From positions 1 to 57,068 of the IMG/VR virus record IMGVR_UViG_3300046536_000466: 57,068 bases of DNA. One strand, written 5' to 3'. Position 1 is the first letter of the stretch; each line of letters begins with the position of its first letter. Shown piece after piece: positions 6,819 to 56,346 of the stretch. The position numbers were made by a program, and so were the translations under genes. Below the pieces are notes generated by a model, which was not told the DNA's origin, did not search any database, and was given only the letters and a program-made list of their open reading frames with translations. The stretch comes from a virus.

Positions 6819-6961
6819 GGTTCCTCCTGGGTGGTCCATTCGGTGATGCGGGCGTCGTGGCTGGGGATGGTGAGCTTTCGGCCGCGGGGGCTGGTGCAGC
6901 GGGTGCCGGGGCGGGCTCCGCACCAGGGGCAGCGGATGGCCCACTCCGGCGGGTTGGTCAC
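6707..6961 (-). CDS. Phage zinc-ribbon protein with long out-of-frame overlap
   Basis: 84 codons, GTG at 6961 in a GTGA overlap with the upstream stop. Residues 1-48 carry CPWCGARPGTRCTSPRGRKL, the pattern of small actinophage zinc-finger proteins. The remaining 36 residues are Pro/Ser/Thr-rich and are read across the coding frame of the 54-codon gene. The tail composition suggests that only the N-terminal half is under selection. A related ribbon ends the upstream protein (CPACQAPLGRHC). Confidence 0.62.
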   Translation of the reverse strand: MTNPPEWAIRCPWCGARPGTRCTSPRGRKLTIPSHDARITEWTTQEEPCTTSPPPPSPPSTPPSKTPNASTKTTTTPPGAWPST

Positions 6962-7689
6962 TGGGCCTCGGTCTCGCGGAGTTGGCTCTGGAATGCCTCC
7001 ATCTGGGCGCGTTCCTCGGGCGTGAGCTGGCCGAGGTAGGCGGCGGCGGCTTCTTTGCGGGCGGTGATCTGGTCGGTGTCTTCGCGGGGCAGGTCGTGGG
7101 CGTCGCGTGCTGCGCGGCGGCGTGCGGCGTGGGCGACGGTGCGGGGGCTGCCGTTGCTGCGGCAGTGGCGTCCGAGGGGCGCCTGGCAGGCAGGGCAGGC
7201 GACGGTGAGCGGGCCGACGCGTACCGGCCGGCGGGTGCCGGTGGTGTCGTCGCCGGGTACGTCGTGTCCGACGGCGGTGAGTTCACGCATCAGCCGCGGG
7301 TCCGGGGTGCCGGGGCCGAGGGCGCGGAGCCCGGTGTCCGGTCCGATACGGCCGTCGGCGAGGGCAGCGGTGCGGGCGCGGAGCCGGTTGAGGTACTGCT
7401 GCGGGGTTTCGTCGGGGTCGCCGTCGTAGCGGAGGTTGGCGACGCGTTCGCGGCGGGCCCGCTTCGCGATGTCGATCAGGTCAACGGCCGTGACCCGGAA
7501 GCGGTCCTGCGGCTGGCGGGCTGCCATCTCCTGGTAGAAGGCGGTCAGCGCGGTCTCGGCGTCGGTGCGGGTGAGTCCGGCGGCGGAGAGGTCGGCTTGC
7601 CAGGCGAGGATGTCGGCGCGTCCGACGGTGCGTTGGTCGCGGGCGGCGGCGAGGCCGAGGAGTGTTGAGGCGTCTTCGAAGGTGATCAC
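6958..7689 (-). CDS. Early protein with C-terminal zinc ribbon, adjacent to the replication initiator
   Basis: 243 codons, GTG at 7689 in a GTGA overlap. The N-terminal half is helical (VITFEDASTLLGLAAARDQR, LSAAGLTRTDAETALTAFYQ), as in proteins that accompany phage replication initiators. At about residue 165 there is CPACQAPLGRHCRSNGSPRT, a CxxC...C ribbon related to the next gene. Position directly after the initiator suggests a helicase-loader-like or accessory role, but no ATPase motif is visible. Function inferred only from context. Confidence 0.68.
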   Translation of the reverse strand: MITFEDASTLLGLAAARDQRTVGRADILAWQADLSAAGLTRTDAETALTAFYQEMAARQPQDRFRVTAVDLIDIAKRARRERVANLRYDGDPDETPQQYLNRLRARTAALADGRIGPDTGLRALGPGTPDPRLMRELTAVGHDVPGDDTTGTRRPVRVGPLTVACPACQAPLGRHCRSNGSPRTVAHAARRRAARDAHDLPREDTDQITARKEAAAAYLGQLTPEERAQMEAFQSQLRETEAQ

Positions 7690-8549
7690 TGGGCCTCCCG
7701 GTGTGCGGCGGCTTGAGCTGCGTCGTGTTCGGCTTGCATCTGGCGGCCGAGGTCGAGGGCGGCCTGGACGCGGGCGTCGGTGGTGGAGGGGCGGGGTTGG
7801 GCGAAGGGCACGACGTTGGTGCTGGGGCGGTTGGCGCGCTCGGACGCGAACTTCGCGGAGCGGCGGATCCACTTCTGCCATTCGGTCGGCCAGTTGGGGC
7901 GGCGGACGTTTTGGGCGCGGAAGTGGTCGACGAACTGGGCGGTCTCGTAGTCGAGGTCGAGGCCGGGGCCGAAGGTGCGCAGCGCCCATCCGCGCATCGG
8001 GTCGGTGAGCTCGAAGCCGGCTGTCTCGATCGGGGTGAGGCCGTCAGGCTCCGGCGCGCGGCGACCGCGCGGGGCCACGTTCGGACGGTCCTCAGCCCCC
8101 TCCTTTTGTGTTCCTTCTGGTGTCTCTGTGTTAACTGCGTTATGGGGTACGGATTGTGGACCCCTACCGGTACGGATTCCGGACCCCCCCGGTACGGATT
8201 CCGCACCCCCCGGGGTCTTCTTTTCTGACCGGTACGGATTCCGTACCGGTACGGAATCCGTACCCCCCTTGCGGGTGTGGCCCTTGGCGCAGGGAAGCCT
8301 GTAGCGGGTCTCTCCGTGCGGTCCCGTGACGCCCAAGACGATCTCCAGTTCACCGAGATCGAGGAGGGTGTCGACGGCCTTGATGACGGCGGTGCGGGAC
8401 GCGTTGGACCGTCGCATCAGGAAGGTGCTTCCGGCGTACGCGGAGACGTCGGGTCCGCTCGCCTTGTCAGCGATGGCGAGGAGCACGAGGCGTGCCGTGT
8501 TCTTGGAAGCGGAGTGCTCCCATACCCAGTCCTGCGCGTCGAGGCTCAA
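7686..8549 (-). CDS. Probable replication initiator with internal iterons
   Basis: 287 codons from a TTG at 8549, preceded by GAGAAGGACCG. Residues 1-85 look like a winged helix (NTARLVLLAIADKASGPDVS, SRTAVIKAVDTLLDLGELEI), as in phage replisome organisers. The C-terminal part (WPTEWQKWIRRSAKF) has the Trp-rich helix found in DnaT/replisome organiser-like proteins. The linker between them, about residues 95-135, is Pro/Gly-rich and its DNA carries the repeated GGTACGGATTCCG iterons. This is the same arrangement as lambda O, where the origin lies in the initiator gene. Initiator function is inferred; no search was made. Confidence 0.75.
   Translation of the reverse strand: MSLDAQDWVWEHSASKNTARLVLLAIADKASGPDVSAYAGSTFLMRRSNASRTAVIKAVDTLLDLGELEIVLGVTGPHGETRYRLPCAKGHTRKGGTDSVPVRNPYRSEKKTPGGAESVPGGSGIRTGRGPQSVPHNAVNTETPEGTQKEGAEDRPNVAPRGRRAPEPDGLTPIETAGFELTDPMRGWALRTFGPGLDLDYETAQFVDHFRAQNVRRPNWPTEWQKWIRRSAKFASERANRPSTNVVPFAQPRPSTTDARVQAALDLGRQMQAEHDAAQAAAHREAQ
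8101..8270. repeat. Iteron cluster, candidate replication origin
   Basis: Copies of GGTACGGATTCCG (allowing small changes) begin at 8146, 8169, 8191, 8231 and 8248. The first three are spaced 23 and 22 bases apart, about two helical turns. The 8231-8247 copy and the 8248-8264 copy are each near-palindromic and abut. Bases 8101-8145 just beside them are clearly richer in A/T than the surroundings and could be the unwinding element. Lies wholly inside the initiator gene at 7686. Confidence 0.72.
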
Positions 8550-8587
8550 CGGTCCTTCTCTCGGTCGTGCTGATCTGCGGAGAGGAG

Positions 8588-8613
8588 CGGGGCCGCCCGA
8601 GAGCGGCCCCGCG
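8588..8613. terminator. Hairpin between ParB-like and initiator genes
   Basis: GCGGGGCCGC pairs with GCGGCCCCGC around 6 bases. It lies between the stop at 8621 and the TTG at 8549, and could reduce read-through from the ParB-like genes into the initiator. Confidence 0.65.
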
Positions 8614-8620
8614 GGTGGGG

Positions 8621-9517
8621 CTACTTGGGCTCGTGGTAGATGACTTCGCTGGTGGTGGGCGACTTGAGGCGGATCGCGGTCAGCGGCTCACCCTTGCGGA
8701 CCTTGTTCCACGCGAGGAAGATCATGCTGAGCTTGACGCCGTCGGGGACTTCCACCTTGTTCTTCTTGTCGATCTCAGCCTTCTTGCGAAGGGCGTAGAC
8801 GGGACTGCTGGCGGTGAGCATCAGACCGCTGCCGAGGCGGTCGAAGAACTCGCCACAGGTCGCCGAGTCGATCTTGTATGTGAGGTAGTGGGCCGTCCCG
8901 ATGACGGACGCGGGCAGGAACCCGAACCCGCCGTACGTGCGCGTTCCGATGTCGGCGGACCGCTGGAACGCGAGAGCGTCAGCCTGGAAGGCATCCTCGA
9001 TCTCGGCGTTGGAGATCGTCAGGTTGGAGGACAGCTTCTTGTCCCCCATGTTCCACATGAGGACCTTACGGATGACAGCTGCGACGTTCTTGCCATTGCC
9101 GACGCCGGCGAACTTGAGGGCGTCTCCGGCGGTGCGACGCGCGCCGGTGTCCATCGTGGACCGTGTCTTCTTGTCGAGTCCGGAGCGAATCCACAGCGGG
9201 ATCGGGAGATCGGTCTTGACGACGGCAAGGAGCCGGTGCTGGCCGTCAAGGAGGGCTGGCTCGTCGGAGAAACGGATGGTGTCGCCGTTGTCCTTCCAAC
9301 GCCCCTGGGTCATGTCGCGGGCGATCTTGTCGACGTTGGTCTGACGGATGGTGCGGTTCTCGACGTTCAGGTTCAGCAGCTCGGCCGCGAGTTCGGGCGT
9401 GACCATGACGAGTTGGGGACCGGCGTGCACGCTGAGCTTCAGCCACTGAACGGCCAGTTCCACGGGGACTGCCATCGGCTTGGGCGCGGTGTTGTTCTCG
9501 CTGAAGAGGTCGTACAT
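8621..9517 (-). CDS. ParB/Srx-like DGQHR-domain protein
   Basis: 298 codons, ATG at 9517. Residues 60-110 contain NRTIRQTNVDKIARDMTQGRW followed by LLDGQHRLLAV, the ParB/Srx-type DGQHR signature that contacts nucleotide in this fold. No ParB-type HTH follows; the rest is helical. The next gene upstream, at 9530, supplies an HTH with a ParB/KorB look. Known family members in actinophages have no clear function. Possible roles are DNA binding or partition; not decided by the sequence. Confidence 0.72.
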   Translation of the reverse strand: MYDLFSENNTAPKPMAVPVELAVQWLKLSVHAGPQLVMVTPELAAELLNLNVENRTIRQTNVDKIARDMTQGRWKDNGDTIRFSDEPALLDGQHRLLAVVKTDLPIPLWIRSGLDKKTRSTMDTGARRTAGDALKFAGVGNGKNVAAVIRKVLMWNMGDKKLSSNLTISNAEIEDAFQADALAFQRSADIGTRTYGGFGFLPASVIGTAHYLTYKIDSATCGEFFDRLGSGLMLTASSPVYALRKKAEIDKKNKVEVPDGVKLSMIFLAWNKVRKGEPLTAIRLKSPTTSEVIYHEPK

Positions 9518-12235: not shown

Positions 12236-12538
12236 TCAGGTGGTCTTCTGCACTGCGGCCTGCGCCGCCCGATACACCGCCGGATTCGACCGGCGCTTCC
12301 CGGACGCGACCGCCCGGTCATCCGCCACCCGCGACGCCGAGATCGGCGACGGCGGGTGCGAGTTGGGCGTCGGGCTGACTGTCGACGGTGCTTCGGGCTG
12401 CCCCGCCATAGCGGCCGGGGTGTGAGCCGGACAGCGAGGGCCAGGCAGGAACGGACGGACACGGCCGGTGCTCTTGCAGTGGCGTTGCTCGGCGCCGATC
12501 CAGTGCGTGCAATCGCGGCCGAGCCACGGGCCGGTCAC
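12236..12538 (-). CDS. Small Cys-containing protein with disordered tail
   Basis: 100 codons, GTG at 12538 overlapping the WhiB stop (GTGA). The N terminus VTGPWLGRDCTHWIGAEQRH is followed by C and PGPRCPAHTP; this Cys/His arrangement recurs in small Streptomyces mobile-element proteins and may bind metal. The rest is Pro/Ser-rich. Translationally coupled to WhiB. Function unknown. Confidence 0.7.
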   Translation of the reverse strand: MTGPWLGRDCTHWIGAEQRHCKSTGRVRPFLPGPRCPAHTPAAMAGQPEAPSTVSPTPNSHPPSPISASRVADDRAVASGKRRSNPAVYRAAQAAVQKTT

Positions 12539-13107
12539 GCCGCGACCGCCAGGTCTGCCTCTTCCGCCCGTTCCCGCCGGTCCGCGAGATGCGCCGGCCG
12601 AACACACCCGTCGACCTGGCAGGTGCGTTTGACGTCGCCCTCGGGCCAGTGCCCGCGGTCGAGGTAGAACGCGAGCCGGTTCGGGGTGACGCTCTTGTTG
12701 TCGGGCCGGTAGATGACCTTGGGCCCGATCCACCGCAGGTGTTCGCCGTCTGTGTCGGTTCCGGCTACCCATACCTCTTCGAAGGTGCGGCCGGTGGCGG
12801 CGGTGCGTGGGGTGCCGGTGTAGTCGTCGACGCTGATGCGGGTGACCTTGCGGCGGCGGAGGATGGTGCGGCGTTCGGCCTCGGACGTGCCGCCCCAGAT
12901 GCCTGTTTCCTGGCCGGTGTCGAGTGCCCACTGGCCGCAGGCGTCGATGGCGGGGCAGCGTCGGCAGACGCTCTTCGCCTCCTCGATCTGGGCTGCGTAG
13001 GGGCCGGCGCTGCCCGCGGGGAAGAACAGGTCGGGGTCCTCGTCGCGGCAGACGGCTTCATCGCGCCAGTCCTTGGCGCGCGGGGTAGCGCCCTGGTAGT
13101 GGCTCAT
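12535..13107 (-). CDS. whiB: WhiB-family iron-sulfur regulator with C-terminal HNH-like extension
   Basis: 190 codons, ATG at 13107. The WhiB domain has Cys20 (EAVCRDEDPDLFFP), Cys48 and Cys51 and Cys57 (SVCRRCPAIDACGQWAL), and the GIWGG turn, all expected of the [4Fe-4S] family that binds sigma factor. Host WhiB proteins are about 85-130 residues. Here an extra part of about 100 residues ends in CQVDGCVRPAHLADRRER, which resembles the end of HNH endonucleases without the first catalytic His. Could alter host transcription or lysogeny, as phage WhiB proteins are known to do; inferred. Confidence 0.88.
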   Translation of the reverse strand: MSHYQGATPRAKDWRDEAVCRDEDPDLFFPAGSAGPYAAQIEEAKSVCRRCPAIDACGQWALDTGQETGIWGGTSEAERRTILRRRKVTRISVDDYTGTPRTAATGRTFEEVWVAGTDTDGEHLRWIGPKVIYRPDNKSVTPNRLAFYLDRGHWPEGDVKRTCQVDGCVRPAHLADRRERAEEADLAVAA

Positions 13108-13436
13108 GCCGCCGCTCCTTTCGTGCGGGCGCGGTGGACGGTCCGCTTCGAGCAGCGCACCCGCGCCGCGATGACGGAGGCGGGGAGCTGCCAGGCGTCG
13201 AGCCGCTGGATCGCGGCGCGCCGCTCCCTCGGGCTGAGCCGGTTGGGCGGGTCCCCGGCAGCGGCCCGGCGGATCGCGGCCTCGTCGGGCTGGGCCGGCG
13301 TGTAGTTGGCGTCGAACCACGTCCGGCTGCGGATACGGGCGCAGGCCCGGCAGTAACGCCAGCCGTTCGGCCGGTAGGCGAGGTTCTCGGGATAGGCGTG
13401 GCCGTGCTTGCACGTGGGGTCGGTGGGCTGGTTCAT
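13104..13436 (-). CDS. Zinc-ribbon plus HTH protein
   Basis: 110 codons, ATG at 13436. N terminus CKHGHAYPENLAYRPNGWRY-CRAC is the zinc ribbon common to phage HNH-related proteins. The C-terminal part, RRAAIQRLDAWQLPASVIAA then RVRCSKRTVHRARTKG, is a helix-turn-helix. Probably DNA-binding. Overlaps WhiB and the RuvC-like gene by 4 bases each. Confidence 0.72.
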   Translation of the reverse strand: MNQPTDPTCKHGHAYPENLAYRPNGWRYCRACARIRSRTWFDANYTPAQPDEAAIRRAAAGDPPNRLSPRERRAAIQRLDAWQLPASVIAARVRCSKRTVHRARTKGAAA

Positions 13437-14068
13437 GCCGCCACCGCCACGGTGGTCGTCGGCCAGGCCACGCCCTTCAGCGCCCGCGAGTGGGTGGCCG
13501 GCACGTCGGCGAGCGGGTAGCCGAGCCAGTCCATGCCCATCGCCATCAGCACGTAGGCGTCGGCCTCGTCGTACCGGGCAGTCCCGGCGAACTCGACGCC
13601 GTACCGCAGCGAAGCCTCGATGCGGACCAGCCCCTTGACCTGCTTGGCGGTCAGCTTCTGGCCGGTCTCGGCATCTTTGTGGCGGGCCTTGCCCGTGGCG
13701 TAGATGGTGCGCGAGTCGGGAGTGACGACCGCGAACGGGATGCCCCGTCGGTGGAGGTCGCAGCGGATCATCCAGCGGGCGGCGGACATCTCGTCGTGGC
13801 CGACCTGCTTGGCCATCGAGTACGCGGCGCCCTCGATGACGGCGAAGTCGGCGTTGCGGTAGAAGGTGGCCGCGGTCTCGACGATGTGGGTGAGGCGTTC
13901 CTCGGCGGCCAGTCCGGTGGTGCGGAAGTGGTCGGCCCAGCCGGGGCCTGCGACGCCGGAGGTGATGAGCGCGATGTCGAGGCCGACGACGAGGGGCTGA
14001 TTCTTCAGGACGGGCGGGGTCGGGAGGGCCGGTGCGGCGGTGTCGAAGAGGGTGGGTGCGGTGGTCAC
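13433..14068 (-). CDS. RuvC-like Holliday-junction resolvase
   Basis: 211 codons, GTG at 14068 in a GTGA overlap. RNase H-fold acidic residues are visible: Asp31 in VVGLDIA, Glu79 in FAVIEGAAYS, Asp167/Glu168/Asp170 in YDEADAYVLMA. RuvC-type enzymes cut four-way junctions; here it would process replication or recombination intermediates before packaging. It lies with the exonuclease and RecE/RecT-like genes. Length is close to phage RuvC proteins. Confidence 0.83.
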   Translation of the reverse strand: MTTAPTLFDTAAPALPTPPVLKNQPLVVGLDIALITSGVAGPGWADHFRTTGLAAEERLTHIVETAATFYRNADFAVIEGAAYSMAKQVGHDEMSAARWMIRCDLHRRGIPFAVVTPDSRTIYATGKARHKDAETGQKLTAKQVKGLVRIEASLRYGVEFAGTARYDEADAYVLMAMGMDWLGYPLADVPATHSRALKGVAWPTTTVAVAA

Positions 14069-14280
14069 AGGGTCCCCTCGGTGTCGTAGTAGTCGGCGAC
14101 CGCGGCGCCGTACTGCTTCATGCGGGCTGCGGCCTCGGCGACGAGCTCCTCGTCTGCGGCGGACAGTTCGGCCGGCTCGCAGATCGGCGGGCTCTGCGCG
14201 ATGGCGATGGCCAGAGCGATCAGTGCGGCCGCGTAGCAGGCGGCGATCACAGCGGCGGAGACGGCGACGACAGTGGTCAT
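14065..14280 (-). CDS. Small membrane protein
   Basis: 71 codons, ATG at 14280. Residues 2-28 are strongly hydrophobic (TTVVAVSAAVIAACYAAALI), followed by an acidic soluble helix. A single membrane anchor or uncleaved signal. Overlaps both neighbours by 4 bases. Function unknown. Confidence 0.68.
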   Translation of the reverse strand: MTTVVAVSAAVIAACYAAALIALAIAIAQSPPICEPAELSAADEELVAEAAARMKQYGAAVADYYDTEGTL

Positions 14281-14537
14281 CGGGCACCGCCGTGGATGTG
14301 ACTGCACGACCGGCAGATCAACTCACCGCGCCACGGCGTCCGGGCATGGATCGTGTTGCGGTCCTCGGCCGGGCAGCGCCTCGTCACCTCGGTCGGACGG
14401 AGCAGCCGCCACGGCGCCCGGTGCCGGCCACGGCTGGGTACGGCGTCGGCAGGCTGCACGAGACGGCGCAGGATCAGAAACGCCAGGCTCAGACAGACGA
14501 TGAGGGCAGTGGCGCCCACAGTCAGCGGATCGATCAC
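14277..14537 (-). CDS. Small membrane protein with Cys pair
   Basis: 86 codons, GTG at 14537 in a GTGA overlap. One membrane segment (residues 4-24, PLTVGATALIVCLSLAFLIL), then a basic region, and a C-terminal LICRSCSHIH that could bind metal. Function unknown. Confidence 0.68.
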   Translation of the reverse strand: MIDPLTVGATALIVCLSLAFLILRRLVQPADAVPSRGRHRAPWRLLRPTEVTRRCPAEDRNTIHARTPWRGELICRSCSHIHGGAR

Positions 14538-15622: not shown

Positions 15623-16225
15623 TTAGAACGGCGGGTCGTTGCTGTAGCCGGGCGGGGTGTCGTAGCTGAACGGCATGTCCGGCCGCAGGTCTTCGGCTCG
15701 GCGTTCGACGTGGCCAGCGAGGTCGAGGCCGACTCGGCGGAGTTCGTCGATGACGCTGCGGGCCCACTTGCGGACGGCGTCGTTCTCGCCGTCGACGAGC
15801 GCTTCCGCGACATGTCCGGCGATGACCGGGATCGCGGCGGCCAGCGTGTCGGCGGGCGTGACGTGCCCGGCCCGGTTGAGGTTCCGCAGGGCGGTCTCGA
15901 CCGGCGGCGAGTACGACTTGCCGGGGATGCGCGGCTTGAACTCGGCGGCGTGCCGGGCTGCCCATGGGTCGTCGTCCACGATCTCGGCAGGCACGACCCA
16001 GTCCACGACATCGCGCCACTCGTTGATGTGGGGCCCGTCGCCGACGTACCGGTCGGTGAGCTGGGCAGCCGCCGCGGCGGCCTGCGCTGCGGCGAAGTGT
16101 GCCTGCGCCGACATCAGGTGGTGGAGTGAGGCGCCCGGGTCGACAGGCATGCCGCCCGGCTTGTCGAGGAACGATGCGCTGCTGAGGTGCCGCTCGCCCT
16201 CGCGGTAGTGCTGCGGCCCGTTCAC
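15623..16225 (-). CDS. Hypothetical early protein beside RecT
   Basis: 200 codons, GTG at 16225, overlapping the RecT-like stop by 4 bases. The N terminus (HYREGERHLSSASFLDKPGG, then an Ala-rich helix AQAHFAAAQAAAAAAQLTDR) is typical of Streptomyces phage/AICE proteins of unknown function; the second half is helical and acidic. Translationally coupled to recT. Confidence 0.7.
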   Translation of the reverse strand: MNGPQHYREGERHLSSASFLDKPGGMPVDPGASLHHLMSAQAHFAAAQAAAAAAQLTDRYVGDGPHINEWRDVVDWVVPAEIVDDDPWAARHAAEFKPRIPGKSYSPPVETALRNLNRAGHVTPADTLAAAIPVIAGHVAEALVDGENDAVRKWARSVIDELRRVGLDLAGHVERRAEDLRPDMPFSYDTPPGYSNDPPF

Positions 16226-17040
16226 GCGTCACCGCCCGGCTGCGTCGCCTCGGGCCAGTCGGTGGACCCGTTGGCCGCGGCGTGGTCCCACACCCCGTCC
16301 TCGGGCTCGTCGGCACGGGCCACGCTGTACTCAGCCTCAACAGATGGCGAGGTCTGCTCCTCGGCAGCCAGAGGCCGCTGCACCCCGGCCGGCGTCGGCG
16401 GATTGGTGATCGCGGCCACCGACAGCGGCGCCCTCGCAGGGAGGACCTGACCGGTCGTGAAGCCCTCGTACTCCTCGGAGGCGTAAGGCATTCCGTGCAG
16501 AGCGTCCGACGCGATCAGGCGGCAGACGTCGCCCGTCGCGCGGGCGACGAGCATGCCCTTCGGGTTCTTCTTCCACTGGTCCTTACCGAGGAGCCCCATC
16601 ATCCGGGCGCGGTCGGTAGTCCACTCGACTTCCTGCCACGCCTCCGATCCGGCACGGCGGCCCCGCATCACACAGCGGGTGTCCGTCGACTCGACGAGCT
16701 CGATGTCGTGACCCTGCGTCTGGATTACGGCACGCATGGCGTGCGCCCTCAGGGCCGGGGTGCCCTGGATGATGTCGATGCTCTTCAGCGTGGCCATCGG
16801 CTTCAGCCCGAGCTCGGAGCCGGCGAGGATCGCGGCGGCGATGTCGCCGGGCTTGCCGCGCAGGGACTGCGGGACGAACGAAGTCGCGGCGAGCTTCTGT
16901 GCCATGTCGTAGGCGAGGTTGGCCTCTTGCGCCCAGGCGACGAGGGTGGTGGTTCCGGCGGTCGGCTGGACCTCCGGGAGGGCGGGGGCTTGGGTGGCGA
17001 CGACCTGCTGCTCGTCGCGGGGGGCGATCTCGGTGCTCAA
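16222..17040 (-). CDS. recT: RecT-family single-strand annealing protein
   Basis: 272 codons from a TTG at 17040. The TTG overlaps the upstream TGA (TTGA) and GAGGAG stands before it. The core (LAYDMAQKLAATSFVPQSLR, GKPGDIAAAILAGSELGLKP, TDRARMMGLLGKDQWKKNPK, MLVARATGDVCRLIASDALH) fits RecT-type proteins of actinophages. RecT binds and anneals single strands made by a partner exonuclease, which is the next gene upstream. The C-terminal 70 residues are a disordered acidic tail. Confidence 0.87.
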   Translation of the reverse strand: MSTEIAPRDEQQVVATQAPALPEVQPTAGTTTLVAWAQEANLAYDMAQKLAATSFVPQSLRGKPGDIAAAILAGSELGLKPMATLKSIDIIQGTPALRAHAMRAVIQTQGHDIELVESTDTRCVMRGRRAGSEAWQEVEWTTDRARMMGLLGKDQWKKNPKGMLVARATGDVCRLIASDALHGMPYASEEYEGFTTGQVLPARAPLSVAAITNPPTPAGVQRPLAAEEQTSPSVEAEYSVARADEPEDGVWDHAAANGSTDWPEATQPGGDA

Positions 17041-17924
17041 CTCAGGTACTCCTCGGCTTGGCGGAGGGTGTCCCAGCTCGGCATTCCGATCTGGGGGATT
17101 TCGGTGACGGGCCCGGTCCAGTCGGGCCAGATGCCGGTGCGCTCGCACTCGGCGTAGATGCGCAGGGCGCGTTCGTTGCGGGCGCGGCCGATGTCCTGGT
17201 CCTGGTCGGCGAGTTCACGAACCGTGATCAGGTATGGGGCCTTCTTCGAGATGAAGACGAAGACGAACCGGGCCCCCTCCGGGGCGAGCCCTGCGGCGGC
17301 GACGCCGTCGAGGTAGAGGGCGCCCTGCTGGTGGTAGCTGTAGGAGGCGATGGCCTTGCTGCACGCCGTCGGGTTCGCGTCCGTTGTGGTCTTCAGGTCG
17401 ACGACGACCGTGATCTCGGGCCGGACGATCAGCCAGTCCGGGCGGACCCGGACGCGGGCCCCGGTCGTCGGGTCGGTCCAGTAGATCGACCGCTCCGCGA
17501 CGCCGTTGCCCGGTGCGAACAGCGGGCCCGCCTCCGGGTGCCGGCGGATGGCCGTAGCCATCGCGTCGACTTGTTCCTTCTCCTTCGGCAGGAGCGGCAC
17601 CTTGCCTGCCTCGTAGGCGGCGAGTTTGTCGGCGCGGGCGGCGACGGTCTTGTAGTCGGTGGCTTTGATCTCGACGATGTCGGCGCCTTCGCCGAGGACT
17701 GCGGCGTGGACGGCGTTGCCGAGGTCGAACTCCCGCTTTGACGGCTGCGGGTGGTGGCGGTCGTACTGGAACTGGGCGGGGCAGCCGGGGTCGAGGAGGG
17801 CGCGGAGCCCGGTCGAGGAGACCGACGTCGTGTCGGCGTGGTACTCCTCGGCGGTGAGGTCGTCCCGGATGGCCGGGCCGGCGGCCGGGACCGTAATGGT
17901 CCCGGCCGTCACGGTGTGGGTCAC
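17037..17924 (-). CDS. RecE-like 5'-3' exonuclease (PD-(D/E)XK)
   Basis: 295 codons, GTG at 17924. Contains AEEYHADTTSVSSTGLRALL and KREFDLGNAVHAAVLGEG, the start of exonuclease VIII/DUF3799-like nucleases. RVRPDWLIVRP is followed by VVVDLKTT: the Asp and the D-x-K of the PD-(D/E)XK active site; YSYHQQGALYLDGV follows, as in the family. It should resect duplex DNA to give the single strands used by RecT, its overlapping downstream neighbour. Confidence 0.86.
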   Translation of the reverse strand: MTHTVTAGTITVPAAGPAIRDDLTAEEYHADTTSVSSTGLRALLDPGCPAQFQYDRHHPQPSKREFDLGNAVHAAVLGEGADIVEIKATDYKTVAARADKLAAYEAGKVPLLPKEKEQVDAMATAIRRHPEAGPLFAPGNGVAERSIYWTDPTTGARVRVRPDWLIVRPEITVVVDLKTTTDANPTACSKAIASYSYHQQGALYLDGVAAAGLAPEGARFVFVFISKKAPYLITVRELADQDQDIGRARNERALRIYAECERTGIWPDWTGPVTEIPQIGMPSWDTLRQAEEYLS

Positions 17925-23624: not shown

Positions 23625-23872
23625 CAGACGGCCTAACGATCTCATCCGGTAGGTGTCACGGTCACGTACCTGTGGAGAAAATGTTCAGATCACATGGACG
23701 ACAAGTGAACTGAATGGGCGCATAAAGACCGCCCGCCCGCCACAGGGGGGTGCTCACGGCGAACCGTGAACCTGCGACAGACGGACGGCCGTCCAGAAAG
23801 CGGCGGATAGCCCGAAAATTTGGCGACCACTTGGGTACTGACCTGTGATCATCATGCCCCCAGCGTCTACCC

Positions 23873-53603: not shown

Positions 53604-55370
53604 TCACCCATCCAGGGAGACAGATACCGCCTGCGCCTCCCACGCGCTCTGAGGAACCAGACGCCACGTCCCCGCGTCCGTCCGTTCCACGTCCGGCTTC
53701 AGCCCGTCGAGGGCCTTCAGCACCTGCCGCTCCTCCAGCCCGGTCGCCTGCTCCAACTCCCGGCGGGTCACGTTGCCGTACTTGGCGAGCGCGTTGCGGA
53801 CCTTCTCCTGCTGAGTGCCGCCGGCCGCGGGGAGGATGAGCCGCTTCCCCACCGGGGCCTTCGCCGTCTCCCGGGCCAGGCGGGCGACCTCGCGGCGGAA
53901 GTCCTCGCCGCGCAGCCACTGCACCCGGGACCGGAACGGCCGCGCGTAGTCGGGGGTGTTGACGAGGATCTCGCCGGGCTTGGTGAGGTCGCCGGGGTTG
54001 TAGCCGGAGGCGCGCCCGAACACGAACATGGCGTGAGCCCGGTCGTTCATGCGGGTGCTGATCCGGTTGGCGTAGTTCCCGCGGGCGTCGGTCTTCCCGC
54101 CGAACACCCCGGACGACGGCTGCTGCGTCGCGGAGATCATGTGAATGCCATACGCCCTGTTCAAAGCGAGGAACGACTCCACCTTGTCCGAGATCCGCTC
54201 GCCCTTCTTCCGCCCCTTGTCGCCCTGCCGCACCAACTCGGCATGCTCGTCGACGATGACGTACACCGCGGGCCGGCCGTGCCGGGCGGGGATCCACTCC
54301 TGGGCCTCGTCCTCAGCCAGGATGGCGCCGCGCTCGTCCAGCTCCTGCCGCATCCAGTCCATCAGCGCGTGCGCCTCCTCGGGGGTGGAGGCGAGATCTT
54401 GCAGGATGGGCCGCATCGGGGAGAGCTCGGGACTGCCGGGCTTCATGTCCACCCCGTACAGGACAGTGTCCGGACGCCCGGCGAGACGGATCGCGAGCAG
54501 CCTGACCAGCGTCGACTTACCGAACTTGCTGGATCCGGCGATCAGGGTGTGGGAGTAGGCCATCTCGATCGCGACGGGCTGTCCGAACTCGTCCCGGGAC
54601 ACGACGACCGGGTCGAGAAACGTGGCGCCACGCTCCGACTCGTAAGGCACCGCCGTGTCGAGGGGGTCGCCGTCGACGTAGTTCACCACCAACTGGCTGG
54701 TGAGCGGCCCGTCGTCGAGGTGGAACGCCCCGTCGACACGCAGCGCTCCGGCCACCTTCGGCCAGCGAGTGCGCAGCGTGGCCCGGTCGAGGGACGCGGG
54801 GCAGTCGATGACGGCCCGCCAGCCGACGTCCGTGGCCTCGATGAGGCACCCGGCGAGCTCCGTCTTCAGCGTCTCCCACACGGCGGTGCGGAGCTGCTGC
54901 TCCTCGACGGTGCGTCCGGACAGGTCCGGACCGGCCGGGACAAGGTCCGGGACGGTGAGCTTGGCGAGCTGCTGCTGCCGGATCTGCTGGCCGACAAGCG
55001 CCGTCTGGAGCTTCACGGCCTCCATGTTCAGGCGCATGTCGTCGTGGCGGGTGTGGTGCTTGTACACCAGGCGGGCAGCGACAGCGGTGGCCGCGGAGAC
55101 CAGCCACGCGAAGGCGGTGGGCCCGACGCCTCCGACGGTGGTGACGCCTGCCTGCGTGAACGCGCCGGCCATCGCGAGGGCGCCCCAGGACAGTGGCGGT
55201 GACCACTTGCGGGCGAAGCTGACGAAGGCGAGCTTCCCGGTGGCCAGGGCGGTGACGAACTCGGCGACGGCGGCGTGGGTTCCGTACTGCCATTCGGCGA
55301 TGAGGGCGGCCCCGGTGACGATGCTGGGGACGGTGAGGCTGGTGGCGATGTCGGCGCGGCTGACCTTCAC
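53604..55370 (-). CDS. traB: TraB-like FtsK/SpoIIIE DNA translocase
   Basis: 588 codons, GTG at 55370. Two N-terminal hydrophobic segments (residues 10-28 and 62-102) anchor it in the membrane. Walker A GSSKFGKST (279-287), Walker B VYVIVDEHAEL (369-379), then NRAYGIHMISATQQP and NRISTRMNDRAHAMFVFGRA, all as in Streptomyces TraB/FtsK. The C terminus (519-572, QQEKVRNALAKYGNVTRREL, EQATGLEERQVLKALDGLKP) is a winged helix, like the gamma domain that reads clt repeats. It should pump double-stranded DNA across a membrane or septum. Confidence 0.92.
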   Translation of the reverse strand: MKVSRADIATSLTVPSIVTGAALIAEWQYGTHAAVAEFVTALATGKLAFVSFARKWSPPLSWGALAMAGAFTQAGVTTVGGVGPTAFAWLVSAATAVAARLVYKHHTRHDDMRLNMEAVKLQTALVGQQIRQQQLAKLTVPDLVPAGPDLSGRTVEEQQLRTAVWETLKTELAGCLIEATDVGWRAVIDCPASLDRATLRTRWPKVAGALRVDGAFHLDDGPLTSQLVVNYVDGDPLDTAVPYESERGATFLDPVVVSRDEFGQPVAIEMAYSHTLIAGSSKFGKSTLVRLLAIRLAGRPDTVLYGVDMKPGSPELSPMRPILQDLASTPEEAHALMDWMRQELDERGAILAEDEAQEWIPARHGRPAVYVIVDEHAELVRQGDKGRKKGERISDKVESFLALNRAYGIHMISATQQPSSGVFGGKTDARGNYANRISTRMNDRAHAMFVFGRASGYNPGDLTKPGEILVNTPDYARPFRSRVQWLRGEDFRREVARLARETAKAPVGKRLILPAAGGTQQEKVRNALAKYGNVTRRELEQATGLEERQVLKALDGLKPDVERTDAGTWRLVPQSAWEAQAVSVSLDG

Positions 55371-55694
55371 TGGCTGGCTCCGGAGACGGCGCGGCCCCCG
55401 CTGGTGGGCGGGGGCCAGGGCGGGCGGCTTACAGGTACTGGCCGCGCTGGGCGATGCGGCGGACGCTGTCCTGGTTGAGGTCGGGGCGCAGCCGGGCGGC
55501 TTCCTGGAGGAGGAGGTCCTCGCGGATGCCTTGGGCTGCGAGGGAGCGGACGAGTTCGGACGGGCCGGCCGCCTTGTCCGCGATCTCCTTGAGCGGGTCC
55601 GGACGCTCGTCCGGGCTGGTCGCGGGCTCTTCTGTGTCGTCTTCGGGCTCGTCGTCCGGATCGGCGTCCGGACGCCCGGACAGGGTGTCCGGAC
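54468..55694. repeat. Cluster of GTCCGGAC octamers in the traB/spdB2 region
   Basis: Exact GTCCGGAC occurs at 54468, 54914, 54924, 55597, 55666 and 55687, with one-base variants between and after them (54945, 55654, 55708). At roughly 70% GC about 0.05 exact copies are expected per 1.2 kb. Part of the density comes from repeated Pro-Asp codons in the coding sequence. Confidence 0.6.
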
Positions 55695-56346
55695 TGTCCT
55701 GGACAACGTCCGGCAGCGTGGGGTGGCGGGCTTCCAGGGCGAGGCGGAGACGGACGGTTCGGTCCGCGGTGAGCATCCGGTCCCGCTCGCCGAGCGCGAG
55801 GGCCTGTTCGGTCCCGGCCTGCTGCTGCAGGGTGCGGAGGTACGCCTCGTACTTCGGGTCAAGCTTGATCCGGATGGTGTGCATGCCGATCGCCCACACG
55901 CCCTTCGCCGCGGCGGAGACGAGCGCGCCGACGATGCCGACGAGGAGCGCGTCGTGGCGGTGCCCGTCGAGGATGATCGCGGTCATCGACACGGCGAGCA
56001 TCGCGACGCCGGCCTTCACGGGGATGTCGGCGCGCTTGCTGTCGTAGCGGAGGATCCACTCGGCGATCAGGCAGGCGGCCCATCCTGCGTCGAAGACTCC
56101 GGCGACGAGGTACGCGGCCCATGCGGGGGCGAGGAGGGCGAGCATGCCGCCGATGGCGACGGTGCCCCAGACGATGGCGACGGCGGTCATGGCGACGGCG
56201 AACGCGAAGAGGATGCGGCGCAGCATCGAGTCGAGGTTGAACGGGAGCCGCGGCATCGGGGTGGTGTCGGGCACGTCGTACTCGACGGGCACGCCGTGGA
56301 CGACCTCGGTCACGGTGCGGGTCGGGCGGTGGAACGGGCGGGCCAT
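55429..56346 (-). CDS. SpdB2-like membrane spread protein
   Basis: 305 codons, ATG at 56346. Four hydrophobic segments between residues 40 and 150 (LRRILFAFAVAMTAVAIVWG, AIGGMLALLAPAWAAYLVAG, AGVAMLAVSMTAIILDGHR, LLVGIVGALVSAAAKGVWAI). They are followed by a helical cytoplasmic domain, an acidic linker rich in PD (PDTLSGRPDADPDDEPEDD) and a C-terminal helix. This plan fits SpdB2-type proteins of Streptomyces plasmids, which help DNA spread across septa. Lies directly upstream of traB, 58 bases apart. Confidence 0.8.
   Translation of the reverse strand: MARPFHRPTRTVTEVVHGVPVEYDVPDTTPMPRLPFNLDSMLRRILFAFAVAMTAVAIVWGTVAIGGMLALLAPAWAAYLVAGVFDAGWAACLIAEWILRYDSKRADIPVKAGVAMLAVSMTAIILDGHRHDALLVGIVGALVSAAAKGVWAIGMHTIRIKLDPKYEAYLRTLQQQAGTEQALALGERDRMLTADRTVRLRLALEARHPTLPDVVQDSPDTLSGRPDADPDDEPEDDTEEPATSPDERPDPLKEIADKAAGPSELVRSLAAQGIREDLLLQEAARLRPDLNQDSVRRIAQRGQYL

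Follow-up and report, generated by a model that had tools for sequence, protein, structure and literature searches.

Several phages are known to place an origin of replication inside the gene for its initiator. In lambda, the iterons lie between the N- and C-terminus of O (annotated nt 349-433 of O, spacing 20-24-23), and an AT-rich patch follows them (80% AT at about nt 436-475 of O). The Stx phages P27 and 933W carry six iterons and an AT-rich tract within the O gene, and these iterons have been footprinted (PMC7466680). In the Bacillus phage SPP1, oriL combines direct repeats in the initiator gene 38 with an AT-rich element, and the phage encodes its own helicase loader and helicase in addition to the initiator gp38 (PMC6316719). 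The RepA_N initiators of plasmids and satellites (pSK41, pTZ2162, PLE RepA) bind iterons with inverted halves that converge at an A-tract (PMC7145576). In mycobacterial prophages, an origin placed as in lambda has been suggested as one possibility for repA (PMC7157519). The Streptomyces phages SV1, Picard, ToastyFinz and Tubberson encode initiators whose annotation goes no further than DNA binding or replication initiation protein, and no origin is annotated in them.

The locus described here lies in IMG/VR record IMGVR_UViG_3300046536_000466, a viral DNA of 57,068 nt with about 70% GC, which was analysed over its whole length and is called the window. It very probably contains a theta-type, lambda-O-like phage origin placed within its own initiator gene, where the winged-helix domain of the protein would bind six iterons encoded by the linker. 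This reading draws together the initiator family match, the array within the gene, the AT maximum with its phased boxes, the covariation with the N-terminal domain, the loader and helicase neighbours in relatives, and the disordered linker. The original prediction had also proposed a lambda-O arrangement, and the matches to initiator and O-like PHROG families, a layout equal to that of annotated lambda O, and the relatives support it. The arrangement is of a known kind, since lambda, the Stx phages and SPP1 oriL provide precedents with experimental support.

The initiator matches the replication initiation protein family PHROG 6643 over residues 1-141, which span the N-terminal domain and the linker (profile match, E 1.1e-27). 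SV1 gp38 matches the same family (E 1.7e-87). The initiator also matches the O-like PHROG 391 (E 2e-7); the matches to PHROG 391 and 678 that it has in common with lambda O are weak or fall over different parts. AlphaFold2, run on an alignment from which the rows of the annotated phage collection were left out, predicts a well-defined N-terminal domain, a linker with a pLDDT mostly below 50 at residues 107-167, and a helical C-terminal part. The N-terminal domain is similar in fold to solved winged-helix structures (Z up to 8.7), including those of the RepA_N-type initiators 4pt7 and 4pql. The winged helix is a common fold, and the likeness to RepA_N initiators exists only at that level. A scan for promoter and terminator consensus sequences was uninformative. 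The coordinates of the features are given in the table.

Table. Features of the initiator locus in the window (positions in the 57,068-nt record)
Feature	Position	Strand	Remarks
Replication initiator gene	7686..8549	-	287 aa, TTG start; matches to PHROG 6643 and PHROG 391
N-terminal winged-helix DNA-binding domain, aa 1-90	8280..8549	-	AlphaFold2 pLDDT ~95
Predicted disordered linker, ~aa 97-170	8040..8261	-	codes for most of the array and the AT-rich patch
Iteron 1	8248..8264	-	abutting inverted pair with iteron 2
Iteron 2	8231..8247	-	
Iteron 3	8214..8230	-	degenerate, GGTCTTCTTTTCTGACC on the + strand; intact in most relatives
Iteron 4	8191..8207	-	
Iteron 5	8169..8185	-	
Iteron 6	8146..8162	-	adjoins the AT-rich patch
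A-rich (coding strand) presumed DNA-unwinding element	8104..8143	-	60% AT vs 32% for the gene
AACRCA box 1 (AACGCA)	8136..8141	-	2 nt after the array
AACRCA box 2 (AACACA)	8127..8132	-	
AACRCA box 3 (AACACA)	8107..8112	-	
Presumed helicase-loading partner	6958..7689	-	PHROG 8924, zinc-binding domain PF24623; 4-nt overlap with the initiator stop

The array consists of six 17-bp near-palindromes of the type GGTnCGRAWTCCGnACC, which in order of position are spaced 23-22-23-17-17. It is located in the initiator coding sequence between the DNA-binding and C-terminal domains. Its dyads, set at 22-23 bp with an abutting triplet at 17 bp, agree with the lambda O type of iteron (about 18 bp, 20-24 bp apart). 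Iterons 1 and 2 are abutting palindromes that are 100% complementary to each other. Iteron 3 keeps the outer GGTC...GACC and occupies what seems to be a 40-bp gap between clear copies. The original prediction counted five repeats. All five are present as clear copies, with the first three 23 and 22 bp apart and two palindromes abutting, just as it had described, but the number is six, the degenerate copy having been missed. Its placement of the repeats in the linker of a winged-helix protein agrees with the position of the array and with the AlphaFold2 domains. No copy of the exact GGTACGGAWTCCG occurs elsewhere in the 57-kb record, and no second iteron array was found there.

The AT-richer stretch that the original prediction noted beside the repeats is present, directly after the array in the sense of the gene, on the C-terminal side. 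No 40-nt stretch of the record is richer in AT, the sole other one to equal it is at 23675-23717, and only 0.01% of the 40-nt windows in the record reach this level. The genes of relatives have their AT maximum at the same place. Within this patch, AACRCA boxes fall at intervals of about one helical turn. In the window's group (17 genes), every AACRCA falls in the 60 nt that follow the array, with offsets near 2, 11-12, 21 and 31 and in all three reading frames, and there are 38 boxes compared with 6.3 +/- 2.2 in 500 shuffles. GC skew, which had been proposed as a check, shows no switch at 8.1-8.3 kb; this was listed against the origin, yet it neither supports nor refutes it.

The array exceeds what the coding of the protein would be expected to produce. 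When codons were shuffled with the protein kept, the observed score was reached in none of 100 and none of 200 shuffles, although the margin in the test of 200 is narrow (best shuffle 4.92, observed 4.95). The same script found no comparable array in 16 further large genes of the window or in lambda P. As a positive control, it recovered exactly the four annotated iterons of lambda O, a score that 0 of 200 shuffles reach.

The initiator family was gathered from IMG/VR, GTDB genomes and annotated phages. The layout of the array is kept in 15 near relatives, nearly all with 17-17-23-22-23 in the sense of the gene (17-17-17-22-23 in L043), and a few of the 15 are without one recognisable site. 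It stays constant although the protein varies and so does the repeat core, with GGTCCGAAAACCGGACC replacing GGTACGGATTCCGTACC for instance. Over 16 loci, 92 consensus sites lie in initiator genes and one in the 156 kb outside them. A loss of the repeats from close relatives that keep the protein would have counted against the original prediction; all close relatives retain them at the same positions. In more distant members of the family, the linker carries palindromes of quite another sequence, and most of these beat codon shuffles. The SV1/Picard group is an exception: there, most spacings are multiples of 3, and 4 to 28 of 100 shuffles reach the score.

The inheritance of the array follows that of the DNA-binding domain. 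In six relatives (L003-L006, L013 and L014), the C-terminal domain is 48-80% identical to that of the window protein, whereas the N-terminal domain is unrelated (15-29%). Their linkers have 0-1% of the window's 13-mers in common and carry their own repeats, set at about 22 bp. These are clear in L013 and L014; in L003-L006 they are weak and are often equalled by shuffles. Between the window and L003, DNA identity rises from 30% to 88-98% shortly past the AT-rich patch. Across 35 genes, iteron similarity is correlated with that of the N-terminal domain (r 0.80, partial 0.79), a value to which shared descent contributes, and much less with that of the C-terminal domain (r 0.24, partial 0.11). 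Judged by these comparisons, the domain swaps break the link between the iterons and the C-terminal half, despite the shared descent in the correlation. These natural swaps show the DNA-binding domain, the iterons and the presumed opening region moving as one cassette.

The array could have other roles. As an operator, it would allow the winged-helix protein to act as an autorepressor, bound inside its own gene and blocking its transcription, and replication would begin elsewhere. Dyad sites for a DNA-binding protein within its own gene would suit such a role, and an additional regulatory function would be compatible with an origin. However, the sites lie about 285-405 nt into the gene; the upstream region has none, and there is no clear one elsewhere. 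The matching PHROG families are those of replication initiators, the next gene encodes a helicase or loader in several relatives, and the AT-rich phased boxes would be left unexplained. We regard an operator in place of an origin as improbable. A parS-like partition site for the ParB-like protein encoded just upstream (8621-9517) is scarcely credible. That protein has a weak ParB-like match (PHROG 12305, E 0.021), but none of the array-bearing relative loci has a homologue of its gene in the flank examined, and the array co-varies with the DNA-binding domain of the initiator itself.

The repetition in the DNA could also be a by-product of a repetitive, disordered linker peptide. The linker does contain the related peptides GTDSVP, ESVP and QSVP, and the spacing in SV1-type relatives is mostly in frame. 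In the window and its near relatives, by contrast, the spacings of 17, 22 and 23 are never multiples of 3, so that the iteron DNA is read in all three frames and encodes different peptides. Shuffling codons while keeping the protein does not reproduce the array, and palindromy would not be expected from a peptide repeat. It is very unlikely that the protein sequence accounts for the repeats.

If the locus is an origin of the lambda O kind, initiation may proceed in the following manner, which we infer from the sequence. The winged-helix N-terminal domain, probably as one dimer per 17-bp dyad, would bind the six iterons in its own gene. The resulting complex would strain the adjoining A-rich patch, where the phased AACRCA boxes lie, and so cause it to open. 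Through its C-terminal domain and tail, the initiator would next bring in host DnaB and the product of the neighbouring gene, by way of which the C-terminal part would deliver the helicase, and the host polymerase would take over.

The next gene overlaps the initiator gene by 4 nt, just as P overlaps O in lambda. Its family is one of unknown function, and its product had no significant match to solved structures by sequence profile or fold, and no recognised loader fold or family. A G39P- or DnaC-like identity, suspected from the helical pattern, was dropped because no structure matched significantly. Some relatives carry the gene for a DnaC/IstB-type ATPase or a DnaB helicase in that slot. 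The slot is exchangeable among a zinc-domain protein, a DnaC-type ATPase and a DnaB helicase, as seen in the window (6958-7689), L001, L036, L051 and L070. The C-terminal tail of the initiator appears to follow the helicase-loading partner, which we treat as a lead. A tail of the type NP[T/D/A][D/N][Q/H/D] is present at 8 of 9 loci beside a DnaC-type gene and at 0 of 49 beside a zinc-type gene; the pattern was chosen post hoc, the zinc-type loci were partly assigned by inspection, and the loci are related. The close pairs window/L001 and L035/L036 are alike except in the initiator tail and the partner.

The comparison with described systems also brings out differences. Unlike lambda, the window has six GC-rich iterons of 17 bp, including a contiguous triplet, and, within a genome of 70% GC, an AT patch that is only modest and has phased AACRCA boxes. 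Its N-terminal domain has no direct profile match to O (hhalign probability 0.6%), and its partner is not recognisably lambda P. The origins in Stx-phage O genes differ in that their sequences and hosts are unrelated, and the window array is known from sequence alone. SPP1 has a second origin, oriR, elsewhere, whereas a single array was found in the window record. The initiators of SV1, Picard, ToastyFinz and Tubberson are homologous (PHROG 6643) and have repeats in the same linker, but with other iteron cores and spacings of 36, 30 and 24. What sets the predicted origin apart is its Streptomyces-type family, the contiguous iteron triplet, the phased boxes and the exchangeable partners. The phased second box is possibly new. 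A literature search, conducted mostly outside subscription journals, found no paper on this origin in Streptomyces phages or on the GAACCATCA box. The Streptomyces-type phages concerned form a large group that has been little studied, and the locus offers a precise, testable candidate origin for them, on a short, self-contained segment that is a candidate replicon.

Distant relatives have GAACCRTCA in place of AACRCA. IMG/VR was scanned for two nearby GAACCRTCA boxes without regard to the encoded protein, with a scrambled pattern as the control. Among the matches listed, 55 of 69 reading frames match replication-initiation families. An array with 20-24 bp spacing lies directly upstream of 83 of 108 GAACCRTCA sites compared with 8 of 90 scrambled-control sites among the matches listed, the two patterns being comparable only in their neighbourhoods. 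The boxes in the matches listed are mostly 11-12 bp apart. The most frequent distance is 12, but many are not multiples of three, which argues against a motif of the peptide (EPS) alone. Viral contig loci L116-L195 have GAACCRTCA doublets 11-12 bp apart just past the arrays in their O-like initiator genes. Such doublets are possibly an undescribed origin element that these phages share. We tentatively suggest, at somewhat less than even confidence, that O-like origins have in common a helically phased second box after the iterons (AACRCA or GAACCRTCA), which would serve as a code for strand opening or loading that does not depend on the phage-specific iterons. If functional, the phased second box would be an unexpected element common to distantly related phages.

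Other genes of the window were also noted. The gene at 8621-9517, just upstream of the initiator, encodes a DGQHR motif and has a weak ParB-like match (PHROG 5931), and a GC-rich inverted repeat lies between the two genes at 8587-8612. The early region encodes a protein with a WhiB-family transcription factor domain (12535-13413; PF02467, E 5.9e-24). A RuvC-like resolvase (13433-14287) and a pair formed by a RecT-like annealing protein and a RecE-like exonuclease VIII (16222-17924) look like a recombination module. The FtsK/SpoIIIE-like protein encoded at 53604-55862 is unusual beside phage structural genes, and its gene could be one of a host chromosome or a conjugative element.
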